Below, one piece after another: positions 428-45,992 of a stretch of 64,000 bases of DNA. The DNA comes from SAR324 cluster bacterium. GTDB lineage: Bacteria > SAR324 > NAC60-12. Below the pieces are notes generated by a model. The model made no database searches. It saw nothing but the letters and a program-made list of their open reading frames with translations, and was not told the DNA's origin. Positions within the stretch are counted from its first letter, which is position 1. Each line of letters opens with the position of its first letter. The DNA is taken from assembly GCA_015231885.1 (NCBI GenBank), contig JADGAT010000001.1:215436-279435 (forward strand), read 5' to 3'. The translations under genes and the position numbers were made by a program.

Positions 428-1648
428 TTATTTTTGTGTTTTGGATGCACTTCTGGTTGAAGTTTTTCTTGTTCGTGGAGCACTTGTTTTTGCACTTGCT
501 GCAGGAGCTGGTTTGCTTGCAGGAGCTGGTTTGCTTGCAGGAGCTGCAGTTAATTCTTGAACTTTGCTTTTTAAGGCACGGACTTCTTTGCTAAGTTCAT
601 AAATTTTCTTATAGGCAACATCCACCTCTCCTTTTGTTGCAACAGGGCTGTCGCGTAATTCAGCTTCCATCATATTATTGACGATGATGTTGTACTTGCA
701 TTGTGCATCAAGATATTTTGCCTGCAATTCACAAAATTCTGGAGTTCCCATCTCTTGTGCAAAGTACTTATCCCCTTCATTTGCCCATAAGTTCGAGAGT
801 TCCTTAAAAGAAGTAACACTTTTTCCTTCTGCTGCAAGCTCCGATAATTTTTTGGACAACTGCAGATTTGCCTGCATGCTGATTGTACTTATCTTTTGCA
901 TGTACTCATTAGCAAGCTCAGCATAATCCATGAAAGCAATGATGCCTTGGGCGATTTGTTCATTTTTTTCCCGATCCACTCCTAATTTTTGTGCGGATAA
1001 ATACTTTACAAATTGTTCTTTGTATTCACCAAAAAAATCTTTCAGGCTGGAAGCATCCCAGTGAGGCCCCGTTGAACCTAAGTTCTGCAGTGCATCTGTA
1101 AATTGTTGAATCATTCCTCCAAATGGGCCGGCCATTTGCCCCATTCCTGGTATCCCTGACATTCCTGGTATCCCTGACATTCCTGGAAATGCAGAAAACA
1201 TTTTCTGAAATTCTGCTGCTAAATTTCCGCCTCCCCAGTTAAAGAGATTATTTTTTAAGAAAAGATCTTCTAAGAATTTTCTTTGATCTCCCAATCCGGC
1301 TTGAAAACCAAACATATCTCCAAGACCCGATGATTTACTCAACGCATCCGTCCAAAATTTGAATAATTGCTCATAAACAGGAAGTCCCATAAATTGTTGG
1401 ACCGTTTCATGAACTTCTCCTGGTGACTTAAAAAATTGCTGCTGGATGGACTTGCCGGCATCAATGAATTGTTTTGTCAGTTCATTTTGGGAGTTAATCC
1501 ATTCGTTGATAAAAGGGCTGGCTGCCCCTGCGTTTCCGCCTTGCTCTTGAACAGTTTTTCCCCATTCCATGTATTGCTTGATTAACTTTTCCTGTGCTTC
1601 TTGCCAAGATGACAGCCAGGAAAGGTTTTGATCAAAGATTGTTTTCAT
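428..1648 (-). CDS. phaE: Class III PHA synthase subunit PhaE
   Basis: A 406-residue protein placed directly upstream of phaC, matching the class III synthase arrangement in which PhaE is the obligate partner of PhaC. It is rich in Gln, Phe and Trp, with the sort of amphipathic helices expected of PhaE, and has a heptad-like helical region around residues 345-370 before an Ala-Pro-Lys tail. Two low-complexity stretches come from 18-bp tandem DNA repeats: a GMSGIP repeat near residues 155-170 and a PASKPA repeat near residues 368-382. The C-terminus is Lys/Arg/Ser/Thr-rich and could contact granule or nucleic acid (inference). PhaE sequences are poorly conserved, so the call rests mainly on context and composition. 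Confidence 0.85.
   Translation of the reverse strand: MKTIFDQNLSWLSSWQEAQEKLIKQYMEWGKTVQEQGGNAGAASPFINEWINSQNELTKQFIDAGKSIQQQFFKSPGEVHETVQQFMGLPVYEQLFKFWTDALSKSSGLGDMFGFQAGLGDQRKFLEDLFLKNNLFNWGGGNLAAEFQKMFSAFPGMSGIPGMSGIPGMGQMAGPFGGMIQQFTDALQNLGSTGPHWDASSLKDFFGEYKEQFVKYLSAQKLGVDREKNEQIAQGIIAFMDYAELANEYMQKISTISMQANLQLSKKLSELAAEGKSVTSFKELSNLWANEGDKYFAQEMGTPEFCELQAKYLDAQCKYNIIVNNMMEAELRDSPVATKGEVDVAYKKIYELSKEVRALKSKVQELTAAPASKPAPASKPAPAASAKTSAPRTRKTSTRSASKTQK
501..547. repeat. 18-bp tandem repeat inside phaE (PASKPA)
   Basis: The unit gcaggagctggtttgctt occurs at 501-518 and 519-536, followed by a partial copy to 547. It encodes an in-frame Pro-Ala-Ser-Lys-Pro-Ala repeat in the PhaE tail. The copies are identical at DNA level, pointing to recent slippage. 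Confidence 0.95.
1142..1186. repeat. 18-bp tandem repeat inside phaE (GMSGIP)
   Basis: The unit cattcctggtatccctga occurs at 1142-1159 and 1160-1177 with a partial third copy to 1186. It encodes repeated Gly-Met-Ser-Gly-Ile-Pro. The copies are identical and keep the reading frame. Confidence 0.95.
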
Positions 1649-1853: not shown

Positions 1854-2348
1854 TTATTTTGCACTTTCTTCAATGACTTTATGTGCAAAAGCAAAATTTT
1901 TATTAATGACTTCTTTGAATCCATCCAGACTTTTGTTGACAGCATCGCTCATATACCCAATCACTTGCTGGCCTTCTTTTGGAAGATCTTTTGTCAATTT
2001 GGCAACATAATCCTGATTTTGTTCCTGGACTTTTGATGCAAGTGCTGATGTATCCTGAACACTGCTTTCCAATACATTCAAAACCTGAGCTGCAGCATTT
2101 TTTTGCGTAACATCAATTTCTAATGCAGCATCAACCGATTTCTTTATATTTGCGATTCCTTCGCTGCTGTTTGCACAAAAATTACGAAAAGCCGATTTAC
2201 TATCTTCTGGAATTTGTGGTGCTAATTGAAAAAAAGCTTCCATCATCTTTTCTGTTTGTTCTGAAGCTGAATTTAAGTTTTTAAAACCTTCCTCGAATGC
2301 TTTTTTATTAAAATCAACGGCATATTCCAAAATATTTTCACCAGTCAT
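1854..2348 (-). CDS. Phasin family PHA granule-associated protein
   Basis: A 164-residue, almost wholly helical, Ala/Gln/Lys-rich protein without Cys-based motifs or a signal peptide. The N-terminal part (AVDFNKKAFEEGFKNLNSAS) has the phasin look, and the length is typical. Phasins coat PHA granules and control their size and number. A strong ribosome site (GAGGGAACT before ATG) and a good upstream promoter suit an abundant structural protein. It sits upstream of phaE-phaC on the same strand, with a hairpin between them. Confidence 0.85.
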   Translation of the reverse strand: MTGENILEYAVDFNKKAFEEGFKNLNSASEQTEKMMEAFFQLAPQIPEDSKSAFRNFCANSSEGIANIKKSVDAALEIDVTQKNAAAQVLNVLESSVQDTSALASKVQEQNQDYVAKLTKDLPKEGQQVIGYMSDAVNKSLDGFKEVINKNFAFAHKVIEESAK

Positions 2349-2733: not shown

Positions 2734-3867
2734 TCAGATCGTATGAGCAGCAGTATGGGTTAAAGAGATTTTTCCAGAACCATGTTTGAACCAAGTATGA
2801 CAGGTTCCCTCCGGGGAAACCATACAGGGCCCATAGGGATTGGAAGGAGTACAGGTTTTTGTAAACATCTTACAATTGGTTGGCAGAAGTTCTCCCAGCA
2901 TAATCCGATGGCAGTCGCAGCCTGGGGGATGGGACCGCGGAGGATAAGGAGGAGTACAATCTAATTGTTTTTCTGCATCCAGAAAAGAATATTCTTCTTT
3001 TATGCGAAAGGCCGAGTCGTCTACTATATCAATGCCTCTCCATATACCAGGTTTACGTTCAAACACATCTTCAATTAATTGTAACGCTACGGTGTTGCCG
3101 TGTTCATTGACGGCACGGGGATAAGCGTTGACTATCCTGGGTTCTTTATTTTTGATCAGCTTGAGGCATTCGAATATTCCCAGTAAAATATCCACTGGTT
3201 CAAAACCGGTTGCAACACATGGCAATTGGAATTCGTCTTCCATAAAATCATAGGCATGAAGCCCTGTAATCGTGGCAGCATGCCCTGCTAATAAAAAGCC
3301 TTGAATGCTTTCATCATGCACATCCATCAGCAGTTTCAAAACAGGAGGCATATAACGATTGGCGAGCAGGACATATAGATTTTTGGGGATCCCTGTTTTA
3401 ATCATCCCGGCTATACCAACAACCGTTGTTTCAAAGCCGATAGAAAAAAAGACAAAGGTACTGTTCGGATTTTCCCTGGCCAGGTTAACCGCATCCAGAG
3501 CACTGTAAACCATTTTAACACTCCCCCCATTACGGCGAGCGTCTTCTAGAGATTCATGACTGGCAGGAACTCGGACCATATCTCCAAAGGTCAATACGGT
3601 TGTATTCGGCTGGTATGCCAGAGTGATGGCCTGGTCTATGGATTCTACGGGACAAATACAAACAGGGCAGCCAGGGCCAGGAATAATTTGAATGGTCGGT
3701 GGAAGAAACTGACGGATACCATGGCGCGCAATTTCATGTTCGTGTGTGCCGCAAACATGCATCAATTTTACCGTTCCCAGAGAAGCGCTAACTGCTTTAA
3801 TTGCTTTGGAAAGATGTGCCACATATTCAGCATTTTTGTATTTCTCCAAGTTTGCATGTTCTCCCAT
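2734..3867 (-). CDS. hypD: [NiFe]-hydrogenase maturation protein HypD
   Basis: HypD is the iron-sulfur scaffold on which, with HypC, the Fe(CN)2CO group of [NiFe]-hydrogenase is assembled. Family signatures are present: CGTHEH (about residues 39-44), GPGCPVC (about 64-70), GFETT, and the C-terminal cysteine cluster beginning RSHPPGCDCHR and ending near EGTCHTW, which binds the 4Fe-4S cluster. The frame is open to 3906, but ATG at 3867 is preceded by GGAG at a good distance, giving 377 residues, close to the family length. It is the last gene of the hypC-hypE-hypX operon; hypA, hypB, hypF and the hydrogenase subunits are not in the window. Confidence 0.95.
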   Translation of the reverse strand: MGEHANLEKYKNAEYVAHLSKAIKAVSASLGTVKLMHVCGTHEHEIARHGIRQFLPPTIQIIPGPGCPVCICPVESIDQAITLAYQPNTTVLTFGDMVRVPASHESLEDARRNGGSVKMVYSALDAVNLARENPNSTFVFFSIGFETTVVGIAGMIKTGIPKNLYVLLANRYMPPVLKLLMDVHDESIQGFLLAGHAATITGLHAYDFMEDEFQLPCVATGFEPVDILLGIFECLKLIKNKEPRIVNAYPRAVNEHGNTVALQLIEDVFERKPGIWRGIDIVDDSAFRIKEEYSFLDAEKQLDCTPPYPPRSHPPGCDCHRIMLGELLPTNCKMFTKTCTPSNPYGPCMVSPEGTCHTWFKHGSGKISLTHTAAHTI

Positions 3868-3976
3868 TTGGTAAGCTCCACAGAAAATTTTTAATTGCGG
3901 CTGCAACGATGCATTTCTTCTATAAGTATCATTTTTGAAGGTTATGTCCAGGCTCTATTGTCTAAAGGAGGTGTGC

Positions 3977-4783
3977 TTATCTGTCTTTTTCCAGCGCAAT
4001 GCCCGGAAATAATTGCGGTGGCTCTGTCCCCTTTTCTACAAATTGCGTACGCGCCTGTTGGAATTCTGCATGATTGCAGCAGTCTTTCATGCGCTGCAAT
4101 TCTAGCTTAACCTGATCTTCCATGCTGTACAAGAGACGTTTGTTGAGCACTTCTTTAGCCGCAAGCCGCGCCTCTATATTGAAGCGAGCAAAATATTCAG
4201 CCTTTTCCCTGACCTGCTGGCAGAATCGATTTTGTTCCATGTCGAGTTGATCATGAAGCATCCCTAATTCTACTGCTTTCCGGCAAGAGATAGGATTTGC
4301 CTCATAAATTAATTTCTGAGTATGTCCGTAGCCAATCATTGATGGAAGGAGGATGGACCAATATTCAGAACCGGATAGTCCCATGTTGACATAAGATGGA
4401 TTGAGTACAATGCCTTTTCTTCCATATCGCAAGTCTGCAGCCAGTGCCAACATCACTCCTCCTGCTGCCGCAGATCCGCGTAAAGCGGCAATGACCAGTT
4501 TATTTTTGGTCTCCAGAACGCGTTTGACAATCTTATTCAGGGCTTTTAAATTTTTATATGCTAAAATTACAGGATTGTAGCGCAAATGAATCGGATTCAA
4601 GTCAATGCCATTGGAAAAGAAGTCAACTCCTCCCCACAGCACAATGATTCGCGTTTCAGGGGTTTCTGCTGCTTCTTCATATGTTTGTAGAAAATGAGTG
4701 CAGTGTTCCAAATCCATGGCTCCATTGTATCCATGGAATTCTAAATGCCCTACCTGGTTTTTTGTTTTATAAACGATTTCCAT
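3977..4783 (-). CDS. hypX: HypX C-terminal half: enoyl-CoA hydratase-like (crotonase) protein
   Basis: A 268-residue crotonase-fold protein corresponding to the second half of HypX/HoxX. It shows the HypX-like VDFFSNGIDLNPI and the oxyanion-hole region LRGSAAAGGVMLALAADLRYG (about residues 103-123). In characterised HypX one polypeptide has an N-terminal formyl-THF transferase-like domain and this domain, and it makes the CO ligand of the hydrogenase active site by way of formyl-CoA. Here the two domains are separate genes, 79 bases apart. The start at 4783 has only a weak ribosome site, so translation may depend on coupling. The gene is followed by hypD. Confidence 0.85.
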   Translation of the reverse strand: MEIVYKTKNQVGHLEFHGYNGAMDLEHCTHFLQTYEEAAETPETRIIVLWGGVDFFSNGIDLNPIHLRYNPVILAYKNLKALNKIVKRVLETKNKLVIAALRGSAAAGGVMLALAADLRYGRKGIVLNPSYVNMGLSGSEYWSILLPSMIGYGHTQKLIYEANPISCRKAVELGMLHDQLDMEQNRFCQQVREKAEYFARFNIEARLAAKEVLNKRLLYSMEDQVKLELQRMKDCCNHAEFQQARTQFVEKGTEPPQLFPGIALEKDR

Positions 4784-4807
4784 GAATGCTTTTGATTTTC
4801 TACCTTA

Positions 4808-4863
4808 GAAATGCTCAAACAATAACATATCAAAATTTAGCATGTTATTATTTTCGTTTTCCT
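4808..4863. mobile_element. Short MITE-like palindromic element, internally deleted copy
   Basis: About 56 bp between the two hypX halves, flanked by TA on both sides (4806-4807 and 4864-4865). The ends ATGCTCAAACAATAACAT and ATGTTATTATTTTCG form an imperfect inverted repeat. Both ends recur in the 158-bp element at 45835-45992, so this is an internally deleted member of the same family. The TAA stop of the upstream hypX half falls exactly at its border. Confidence 0.7.
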
Positions 4864-5651
4864 TACTGTGCCAACAGATCGGCTGCACGAATTTTAACAC
4901 CACAGTCCTGCGCCAGGCGCCGAATCCAAATACTTCCATCTCCAGTGCCTATGCAAACTTGTCCCATTCTTTTTTCCAGTATTTTTCCGGGCTGCCCTGG
5001 CACTTCTCCTTTGGAGGCCCCATACAATTGAAAGGGCTGCCCTTCAATGATACCAACGGTCCCTGGTTGACTGTCGCCTGCATTAATTTTTCTTAATATG
5101 GTCTCTGTCTTTTCTTCCCAGTCAAAGGCCAGGTTTTCAAGTGTGATTTGGGGGCGATAGACGATAGCAGGTTGGGGCAGCGATGATTCTCCTGAAAAAT
5201 ATCGATCCAAGGCCTGAGGCAGGATGCTCATGATACTGTCAGACACGTGATTACGATAAATATGGGCTGCAGACGCCTGAGGCATGTTAAAGTTTTTGGT
5301 CGCCCACAGCGGGCCAGTATCCCAACCTTCAGCCGCTTGAATGATACTGGTTCCCCAGGAATTTTTCCCTTCTAAAATGGCCCAGTTAAGGGAACTGGGA
5401 CCTCCATCTCCAGGAGGCCCGGGATGTACCACAAAGCAGGGATAGGCTTCCCATATTTTTTTGGGGATGTATTGTTTCAAATAAGGACAGATGATGATAT
5501 CTGGAGACCATTCGTTAATTTTAGTTGGATCCACACCAATCATGACTCGATCTTGCTGGAGTCTAGAAGAAAAATAAACCCATAGTTTTTGGGTCAATCC
5601 ATTAAAACTGCTGCTTAAAAATAATTTTTTTTTTGAATCCAGATATTGCAT
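4863..5651 (-). CDS. hypX: HypX N-terminal half: formyl-THF transferase-like protein
   Basis: A 262-residue protein matching the formyltransferase-like half of HypX: HPGPPGDGGPSSLNWAIL is the family's formyl-transferase signature, and GWDTGPLWA carries the conserved Asp. In HypX this domain takes the formyl group from 10-formyl-tetrahydrofolate and passes it to CoA, which the crotonase domain decarbonylates to CO. The start codon directly abuts the hypE stop (TAAATG), indicating translational coupling. The protein ends at a TAA contributed at the border of the palindromic element, just where a full-length HypX would run on into its second domain. Confidence 0.85.
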   Translation of the reverse strand: MQYLDSKKKLFLSSSFNGLTQKLWVYFSSRLQQDRVMIGVDPTKINEWSPDIIICPYLKQYIPKKIWEAYPCFVVHPGPPGDGGPSSLNWAILEGKNSWGTSIIQAAEGWDTGPLWATKNFNMPQASAAHIYRNHVSDSIMSILPQALDRYFSGESSLPQPAIVYRPQITLENLAFDWEEKTETILRKINAGDSQPGTVGIIEGQPFQLYGASKGEVPGQPGKILEKRMGQVCIGTGDGSIWIRRLAQDCGVKIRAADLLAQ

Positions 5652-6698
5652 TTAACAAATTCTAGGCAATTGTTCCCCTTCAGGCATGTCTAACATGCGG
5701 AGGCTTTCGATAGCAGTTCGTAACAAAACCTTTCCAGGATGCTCACGGATCACTTTGCCGATAACAGCACTTTCTTTTCCCAGAGGATGCTGCCGCATCT
5801 TTTGCAAAACAACATCGCCTTCGTTTTCAGGCACAAACACCAGGCATTTGCCCTCATTGGCAATATGTAATGGATCAAGACCGAGAATTTCGCATGCAGC
5901 CATGACAGCCGGTTGAATGGGAAGTTGTTTTTCTTCCAGCAAAATACCGTATTGCGCTACTGCGGCAATTTCGTTCAATGTGCTTGCCAGTCCTCCCCGG
6001 GTGGGGTCACGCAAAACATGTACATTGGGAGAAACTTCCAGGATGTTTTGTATGAGATCATTCAAAGGAGCCGTGTCACTTTCAATGGTCGTCTCAAACT
6101 CAAGGCCTTCTCTTTCGGACATGATGGCGATACCATGATCGCCAATGTTGCCATTGATCAGTACAACATCACCAGGAGCTGCATTTTTTGGAGAGATGGT
6201 TATGCTGTTTCCAACTGTCCCAATACCCGTTGTGTTGATAAAAACCCCATCGCCTTTTCCTTTTTCTACAACTTTTGTATCACCTGTCACCAGAAGGACA
6301 TTGGCTGCTTGAGCCGCAGAATGCATGGACTGAACAATTTTTTTTAAATCATGGAGGGGAAACCCTTCTTCCAGGATAAAGCTGGCTGCCAGATATTGAG
6401 GAAGTGCTCCGCACATAGACAGATCATTGATGGTCCCGTTGATGGCTAGATCCCCTATATTGCCTCCATGAAAAAAAAGGGGGTTGACCACAAAAGAATC
6501 TGTGGAAAATGCCAGTTTTTGATTCCCAAAACGAAGGATGGCCCCATCATGGTTTTCATCCAGAATCGAATTTTTAAAATACGGGAAAAAAACTGTTTCC
6601 AGCAAATCTTGAGAGAGCTTGCCACCGCTACCGTGACCTAAAACCACTTTTGCAGAACCGGAAGAGTTGGGATGAGGTGTGGATGAAGACAGGCTCAT
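5652..6698 (-). CDS. hypE: [NiFe]-hydrogenase maturation protein HypE
   Basis: A 348-residue PurM-like ATPase. The N-terminal LGHGSGGK motif (residues 20-27) and the C-terminal tail ending PRIC are diagnostic: the last Cys receives a carbamoyl group from HypF and is dehydrated to thiocyanate, the source of the active-site cyanides. Other conserved parts are TGDTKVVEKGKGDGVFINTT and LRDPTRGGLASTLNEIA. Its ATG overlaps the hypC stop by four bases (ATGA), so the two are coupled. Confidence 0.97.
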   Translation of the reverse strand: MSLSSSTPHPNSSGSAKVVLGHGSGGKLSQDLLETVFFPYFKNSILDENHDGAILRFGNQKLAFSTDSFVVNPLFFHGGNIGDLAINGTINDLSMCGALPQYLAASFILEEGFPLHDLKKIVQSMHSAAQAANVLLVTGDTKVVEKGKGDGVFINTTGIGTVGNSITISPKNAAPGDVVLINGNIGDHGIAIMSEREGLEFETTIESDTAPLNDLIQNILEVSPNVHVLRDPTRGGLASTLNEIAAVAQYGILLEEKQLPIQPAVMAACEILGLDPLHIANEGKCLVFVPENEGDVVLQKMRQHPLGKESAVIGKVIREHPGKVLLRTAIESLRMLDMPEGEQLPRIC

Positions 6699-6955
6699 GA
6701 CGGGATCATGCTCCTCGCCTCTTCTTGCAGAGACGCCTCCATTTCTGCAAATATTTTTAGGGTCTCCATGGCTTCTTCTTCATCAAGTTTATTGATGGCA
6801 AAACCGGCATGAACAATCACATAATCATGAAGACCCACTTCAGGAGTCCATTCGATGCAAACACTTTTAATGATGCCGTCAAAATTCACCTTGGCCATTT
6901 TCGGCTGAATGGTTTCGTCAATTTCGATGACTTTCCCGGGGATTGCTAAGCACAT
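6695..6955 (-). CDS. hypC: [NiFe]-hydrogenase assembly chaperone HypC
   Basis: An 86-residue HypC/HupF protein starting with MCLAIPGKV; the Cys after the initiator Met carries the Fe(CN)2CO unit with HypD. The open frame extends upstream to 7180, but the conserved start and the normal family length fix the start at 6955. It is the first gene of hypC-hypE-hypX-hypX-hypD. The DNA upstream (to about 7095) is unusually rich in small inverted repeats and is described separately. Confidence 0.96.
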   Translation of the reverse strand: MCLAIPGKVIEIDETIQPKMAKVNFDGIIKSVCIEWTPEVGLHDYVIVHAGFAINKLDEEEAMETLKIFAEMEASLQEEARSMIPS

Positions 6956-6959
6956 AGGA

Positions 6960-7095
6960 CAGCTCTTGGTTGAAAATGAGTGGCTCGACCTGGTCAAAGA
7001 CCCATCGCAGCAAATGCGAAAGGCCCTAAGGACGGGTTCGATGCAATTGGTGGAGGTCGAACAAATCGAGTGGTTCCACGGGATGTCCCTCCATA
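6960..7095. other. GC-rich, hairpin-dense patch upstream of hypC
   Basis: Several short perfect stems follow each other: GGTC-aaa-GACC (near 6992), CGCA-gcaaa-TGCG (near 7006), CATCG pairing with CGATG across about 30 bases, TGGAGG pairing with CCTCCA around 7050-7092, and inside it GTGG-tt-CCAC and GGGA-tg-TCCC. The DNA is clearly more GC-rich than its surroundings. No convincing gene is found on either strand: one minus frame from an ATG near 7093 looks protein-like but is cut by TAG after 22 codons. Possible readings are a structured leader RNA of the hyp operon or the remnant of a coding sequence. Confidence 0.35.
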
Positions 7096-7335
7096 AAAAC
7101 CTTAATCTGAATGATAAAACAAGAGCCGTTGATATTGCAATAAAAAAATATTTAAAATAACGTCCGTCCTGAATAAGCAATTAAAGAAGACTCATTCGAT
7201 AAGCCTAAAGCAGATTCTGATGTGTCTGATTTCTTTTTTCCGTCTAAAAACCCAACACGCAATTTTCCCATGTGTATTTTCGTTTCTGGGACGATAAACT
7301 GGAGACAAAAGCGAAAAAAGTACAAGAATTCACTG

Positions 7336-45834: not shown

Positions 45835-45992
45835 GGAATGCTAAAACAATAACTTAGCAAATCTACTTGTCTTTTCAACGATCTTCTGCGTTGCTTTACC
45901 AGTGACATAGCAAGGCTATGCGCCCGATAAAACGCCTTGAACCTCGATGAAAATCCTGCGTAACTTTCACATGTTATTATTTTCGCCTTCCT
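45835..45992. mobile_element. MITE-like element, 158-bp copy with inverted ends
   Basis: The left end GGAATGCTAAAACAATAAC and the complement of the right end, GGAAGGCGAAAATAATAAC, agree at 16 of 19 positions. TA stands on both sides (45833-45834 and 45993-45994), as expected for a TA target duplication. The inside contains CATAGC-aag-GCTATG and has no gene. The right end interrupts a decayed CheR/PAS-type gene; the left end touches the msrA leader. Both ends match the 56-bp copy at 4808-4863. Confidence 0.75.

Follow-up and report, generated by a model that had tools for sequence, protein, structure and literature searches.

Elsewhere, HypX, which synthesises the carbon monoxide (CO) ligand of hydrogenases, is known as a single chain. 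A review describes it as one protein with two domains (PMC12134894), and Aquifex HypX/HoxX is described as one polypeptide with an 18-residue linker and with CoA held in one cavity that spans both domains (PMC6802093). The same study proposes residues H74, D80 and D109 for formyl-CoA synthesis and Y416 and E426 for CO release, and its CoA contacts include Q15, R131, S194, Q195 and N306 (PMC6802093). HypX is thought to keep formyl-CoA in one continuous cavity between the two fused domains (PMC6802093), a channelling view that also appears in the review (PMC12134894).

The DNA analysed here, referred to below as the window, is a stretch of 64,000 nucleotides (positions 215436-279435 of its contig) from a SAR324 cluster bacterium genome of 5.13 Mb that is 92.6% complete. 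In the window, the two domains of HypX are encoded by two genes, hypX-N and hypX-C, and a MITE lies between them.

Two hypX genes in a hyp gene cluster

The minus strand of the window carries, in this order, hypC, hypE, hypX-N, hypX-C and hypD (Table 1). A first-pass annotation of the sequence had reported separate formyltransferase-like and crotonase-like halves of HypX at this locus, and both ORFs were confirmed as intact on the minus strand, at the positions given in Table 1.

Table 1. Features of the hypX locus; positions are counted from the first nucleotide of the window.
Feature	Position	Strand	Details and evidence
hypD, downstream of hypX-C	2734..3906	-	TIGR00075 and PF01924 above cut-off
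hypX-C, crotonase-like half of HypX	3977..4783	-	268 aa; Pfam ECH_1
Pre-insertion spacer, stop to hypX-C ATG	4784..4804		21 nt; sequence
Left TTA target duplication	4805..4807		Sequence, triplet counts
MITE copy, 55 bp, internally shortened relative to the usual 156-bp family unit	4808..4862		Family search, end patterns, triplet counts
Right TTA target duplication; equals the TAA stop of hypX-N when read on the coding strand	4863..4865		Sequence, triplet counts
hypX-N, formyltransferase-like half of HypX	4863..5651	-	262 aa, stop TAA 4863-4865; Pfam Formyl_trans_N and Formyl_trans_C
hypE, directly upstream of hypX-N	5652..6698	-	TIGR02124 above cut-off
ORF containing hypC	6695..7180	-	TIGR00074 and PF01455 above cut-off; match starts at ORF residue 76

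When the halves were aligned with single-chain HypX, they matched non-overlapping parts of the Aquifex chain. Aquifex HypX/HoxX was the best PDB sequence match of each (hypX-N: E 3.6e-56, chain residues 22-270; hypX-C: E 2.2e-42, chain residues 308-506), and the part left unmatched corresponds roughly to the interdomain linker, residues 271-288 as delimited in the linker description of PMC6802093, and to no domain segment, so that the objection raised in advance, that both halves might lack a large segment of HypX, does not apply. AlphaFold models of the two proteins (mean pLDDT 92.5 for hypX-N and 85.0 for hypX-C) each represent a complete HypX domain, and HypX was the top Foldseek match of both (query TM 0.89 and 0.88, respectively). 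The locus therefore has the domain make-up of HypX/HoxX, a formyltransferase-like N-terminal part and a crotonase-like C-terminal part with HypX as their best match, on two chains; the single polypeptide is replaced by two ORFs, both in the window and in all six SAR324 genomes with HypX-N. The context is also that of HypX/HoxX, with hyp genes as neighbours in a genome that has a [NiFe] hydrogenase. Methionyl-tRNA formyltransferase and the hydrolase domain of 10-formyl-THF dehydrogenase share the fold of hypX-N and score well below HypX (TIGR00460, fmt, gave 62.5 bits against hypX-N, under its cut-off of 201.5).

The closest described proteins, HypX/HoxX of Aquifex aeolicus (PDB 6J0P) and Cupriavidus necator (Ralstonia eutropha), share with the SAR324 proteins both domains, most catalytic and CoA-contact residues and the hyp context. 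However, they are described as one polypeptide with a linker, whereas SAR324 HypX consists of two genes without the linker and forms a separate clade in trees from which the C. necator protein was absent. Split HypX also occurs in other SAR324 bacteria and in Psychromonas aquimarina, as separate formyltransferase-like and crotonase-like proteins that are, in these examples, 48-86% identical to those of the window; at position D80 some of them carry E, L or R, whereas the window has D.

Downstream of hypD, the minus strand encodes a PHA synthase subunit resembling PhaE (window 428-1648) and a protein of 164 aa that matched no family (window 1854-2348), and the same two genes adjoin hypD in the nearest named relative found, SAR324 cluster bacterium PL24a_bin.25 (L009, the same place as in genome G001).

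A MITE between the two genes

MITEs of the IS5/PIF-Harbinger type have a TWA/TNA target. The first-pass annotation had placed a 56-bp element flanked by TA at the break between the halves; a MITE is indeed present there, but its borders enclose 55 bp and it is flanked by a 3-bp TTA duplication (Table 1). The alternative of a TA duplication with a 56-bp element was rejected on the triplet counts, in which 56 of the 66 end pairs had the same triplet on either side, TTA in 30 and TAA in 26 (the 66 pairs being drawn from 60 fetched regions of the best-listed matches and from the window, with one copy read twice; 20 fetched copies were also aligned with the window copy). For one orientation of the element both TTA..TTA and TAA..TAA were seen, which identifies the triplet as a duplicated target rather than a piece of the inverted repeat.

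The host genome matched the element by similarity in 51 places, and the end patterns of the element (at most 3 mismatches) gave 193 right-end and 187 left-end matches there, compared with 1 and 0 for reversed control patterns. A spacing of 156 bp between the ends was found in 33 of the 66 end pairs, the window copy being shortened internally. Its terminal inverted repeats are imperfect (15 of the first 22 positions pair), and neither of the two copies in the window contains a long ORF (longest stop-to-stop frames of 18 and 51 codons). The second of these copies, near full-length at 157 bp, lies at window 45835-45991 with TTA on both sides. The element therefore shows terminal inverted repeats, a target-site duplication, and shortness and high copy number without a transposase gene, as expected of a MITE. 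The family may be of the IS5/PIF-Harbinger type, with which it shares inverted-repeat ends, direct TTA/TAA duplication, many copies and the lack of a long ORF.

The sister genome G001 gave 24 right-end matches, 21 of them of one variant, while the other 49 genomes gave 0-3 each, no more than the control patterns do. None of the four PF01609 matches in the host genome, representing the one transposase family searched, carried the ends of the MITE within 4 mismatches, and a 61-base query had no match on plasmids. A preference of the MITE for stop codons was considered and rejected, as 6 of 45 copies lie at the end of an open frame of at least 100 codons compared with 29 of 414 TAA sites (7%) in the window (p 0.09); this count leaves out 20 copies with too-short flanks and one double reading of copy L153, and of the six, L153 has no clean duplication and L141 has a frame open to the edge of its region. 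The copies L141, L155, L156 and L157 (and L153, without a clean duplication) occupy the TAA stop of open frames that run for 135-258 codons.

Distribution of the two-gene form

HypX-N was detected in 6 of 52 SAR324 genomes and is split from HypX-C in all six (frames of 262-295 aa), and HypX-C was detected in the same 6 of 51 genomes (264-606 bits; next match 73 bits), some crotonase match to hypX-C being found in 47 of the 51. A full-length [NiFe]-hydrogenase large subunit is encoded in each of the six genomes with HypX-N. Across 51 SAR324 genomes, HypX was present in 6 of the 11 with a NiFe match above 400 bits and in none of the 40 others (Fisher p 2.6e-5). Judging from these searches, the remaining five genomes with a strong NiFe match, in which HypX-N was not found at E 1e-40 (G039, G045, G046, G048 and G050), would have to draw on another source of CO.

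The halves are not adjacent in G006, where one strand carries a cobW/HypB-type gene, hypX-C, a hypE-like gene, a transposase remnant and hypX-N, and they lie on different contigs in G049, where hypX-C adjoins hypD and hypX-N is found among non-hyp genes on a separate 9-kb contig. The remnant between the hypE-like gene and hypX-N in G006 (L112 3041-3358, minus strand) resembles a REP-associated tyrosine transposase (39.1 bits, cut-off 80).

A wider search, covering 383 genomes, added only three HypX-N matches that scored above 101 bits (193-232 bits), all of them in single-chain frames of 555-625 aa, and 28 of the 37 matches, at 101 bits or less, were assigned to formyltransferase paralogues on score alone. 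Protein searches returned 19 relatives of hypX-N (E 1e-3) and 110 of hypX-C (E 1e-30), the window's own proteins included, and the named split entries include SAR324, Lambdaproteobacteria, Deltaproteobacteria TL4 and Psychromonas. Both halves are present as separate proteins in Psychromonas aquimarina (P0009 and P0044), probably on one contig, since both entries give a longest contig of 31,873 bases; in P. ingrahamii 37 and Psychromonas sp. MB-3u-54, by name, the C-half alone was seen. Among the listed hypX-C relatives, the split halves score down to 248 bits and the group that follows starts at 173 bits; the members of this second group were taken as pieces of single-chain HypX. Ten plasmid records matching HypX-C are annotated 'hydrogenase maturation protein', and the two that were examined encode single chains of 577 and 584 aa. 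Fused HypX is much more frequent than the split form, with at least 7998 clusters.

Some split halves bear the JGI name 'putative two-component system hydrogenase maturation factor HypX/HoxX', so that they have already been annotated as HypX/HoxX. Among the matches listed in full-text literature searches, judged by their titles and the beginnings of their abstracts, there was no paper on a two-gene HypX.

Conserved residues and selection

The window's hypX-N retains H76, D82 and D111 (Aquifex H74, D80 and D109) together with Q21, R133, S194 and Q195, and hypX-C retains N20, Y131 and E140 (Aquifex N306, Y416 and E426); the proposed catalytic residues and the five CoA contacts Q15, R131, S194, Q195 and N306 are all present in the window. 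Position R9 is S in the window and is R in 1 of 25 fused rows, and CoA contact R542 lies outside the aligned stretch. Among the split N-halves, H74, D109, Q15 and R131 are found in 21 of 21, S194 in 20 of 21 and Q195 in 14 of 21, and D80 is D in 12 of 21, the others having E (six), L (two) or R (one); in one alignment of split N-halves, E occurs in Psychromonas-type rows, L in G043 and R in G041. Among the split C-halves, N306, Y416 and E426 are found in all 26.

Relative to L009, dN/dS was 0.109 for hypX-N, 0.048 for hypX-C, 0.067 for hypE and 0.040 for hypD, at dS values of 1.1-2.0 that are near saturation; the ratios mostly cover the time before the insertion. Judged by these ratios, selection on both halves is purifying.

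Phylogeny of the split and fused forms

In the tree of N-halves (53 rows), the 24 fused rows formed one clade (99/96) and the 21 split rows another (91/94), and in the tree of C-halves (58 rows), the 24 fused rows formed one clade (100/100) and the 26 split rows formed one clade in 45% of bootstrap trees; the root of the C tree is unsure because of the long branch to the outgroup, where the program warned that long branches meet. Second trees, to which Aquifex was added and from which six long-branched rows were dropped (F_G369, F_Myceto and the outgroup rows O_L016, O_L021, O_L030 and O_L075), gave 98/98 for split and 90/94 for fused N-halves, and 82/78 for split and 100/99 for fused C-halves. 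The fused sample of 24 rows (20 from the best-listed 120 matches, 2 from the 383-genome search and 2 from plasmid records) plus Aquifex stands for thousands of proteins, is made up mostly of best-listed matches and does not include C. necator HypX. Since the sampled fused HypX forms one clade that excludes the split form in both trees, the split form is not derived within the sampled fused forms, and its exclusion indicates that the split is old, being either a pre-fusion state or the result of one ancient fission.

Origin of the split and proposed function

The first-pass annotation had proposed that insertion of a mobile element split an ancestral fused gene, and the locus has two features that suit this idea: the element lies exactly at the gene border, and removal of the element with one duplication (58 bp) does bring both ORFs into a common reading frame, with the TAA and 21 nt between them. 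However, L009/G001, whose halves are 79% and 86% identical to those of the window, has the identical split with TAG, 4 nt and ATG at the junction and no element, the very observation that had been set beforehand to count against the proposal, and the split is found in every one of the six SAR324 genomes in which HypX-N was detected. Among relatives with adjacent halves, three junctions were read and none contains a MITE (L009; G043, with TGA followed directly by ATG, a gap of 0 nt; and G041, with an ATGA overlap). Nor is the frame relation conserved among relatives: of four adjacent pairs, the window in its pre-insertion form and G043 are in frame and L009 and G041 are out of frame, and in-frame restoration was therefore rejected as a relic of fusion. 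The TAA of hypX-N is moreover one copy of the duplicated target, so that the stop was present before the insertion, and the split rows stand outside the fused clade in the trees. That the MITE itself split a fused hypX in this lineage is thus highly improbable; most likely, hypX was already split, with hypX-N ending in its TAA stop, when the MITE inserted there. As to how the older split arose, there is a near-even chance that a fused HypX underwent fission once, long before the SAR324 radiation, and that the two-gene form later passed to Psychromonas, its function being the same as that proposed below. The far greater abundance of fused HypX and the single clade of split N-halves in both N trees are consistent with such a fission, but in neither tree are the split rows nested in the sampled fused clade, and one C-tree run leaves them unresolved as a clade. 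We suggest more tentatively that HypX was originally a pair of proteins, a transferase making formyl-CoA and a separate formyl-CoA decarbonylase, in which case SAR324 and Psychromonas would keep the pre-fusion two-subunit enzyme and single-chain HypX would have arisen by one fusion.

On the sequence data, we consider it probable (about 0.78) that HypX is here two separately encoded proteins, likely a two-subunit enzyme that would turn N10-formyl-THF into CO for the iron centre of the [NiFe] hydrogenase, and that the split preceded the MITE, which hit an existing TAA stop. By analogy with Aquifex HypX, HypX-N and HypX-C would bind across the face that joins the two domains there, would share one CoA, and would pass formyl-CoA from the first to the second active site; a heterodimer sharing one CoA is suggested by the presence of CoA contacts in both halves. 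The earlier suggestion that the products may still work as two subunits is supported, in that they look like working partners, with intact ORFs, key residues kept and low dN/dS. It could instead be that the halves form no working HypX here, one of them having drifted to another task or the MITE having cut the expression of hypX-C, and the widened gap between the genes, the replacement of D80 in 9 of 21 split N-halves and the lack of linkage of hypX-N to hyp genes in G049 would fit such a loss. This appears unlikely, given that the window keeps D80, H74, D109, Y416 and E426, that dN/dS is low, that the genes hold a hyp operon position and that both halves occur in the same six genomes.

Translation of the two genes is probably coupled in L009, G043 and G041, where they overlap or nearly abut. 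In the window, insertion of the MITE left both ORFs unaltered but lengthened the stop-to-ATG distance from 21 nt to 79 nt, which may have loosened translational coupling with no change to either protein. The RNA of this gap showed no special hairpin (z -0.75; 47 of 200 shuffled sequences folded equally well).

A natural two-protein HypX would allow each half-reaction to be assayed alone and the need for formyl-CoA channelling to be tested, and would show whether the decarbonylase accepts formyl-CoA made elsewhere; cultured Psychromonas is a workable source of such a protein. For studies of how aerobic synthesis of the CO ligand of [NiFe] hydrogenases evolved, the two-gene form would also serve as an outgroup.

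In the C-halves, C236, the second Cys of a C-C pair (hypX-C residues 235-236), is invariant in 29 of 29 split sequences, and the consensus of three fused HypX proteins, compared by eye, has no Cys in the corresponding stretch.
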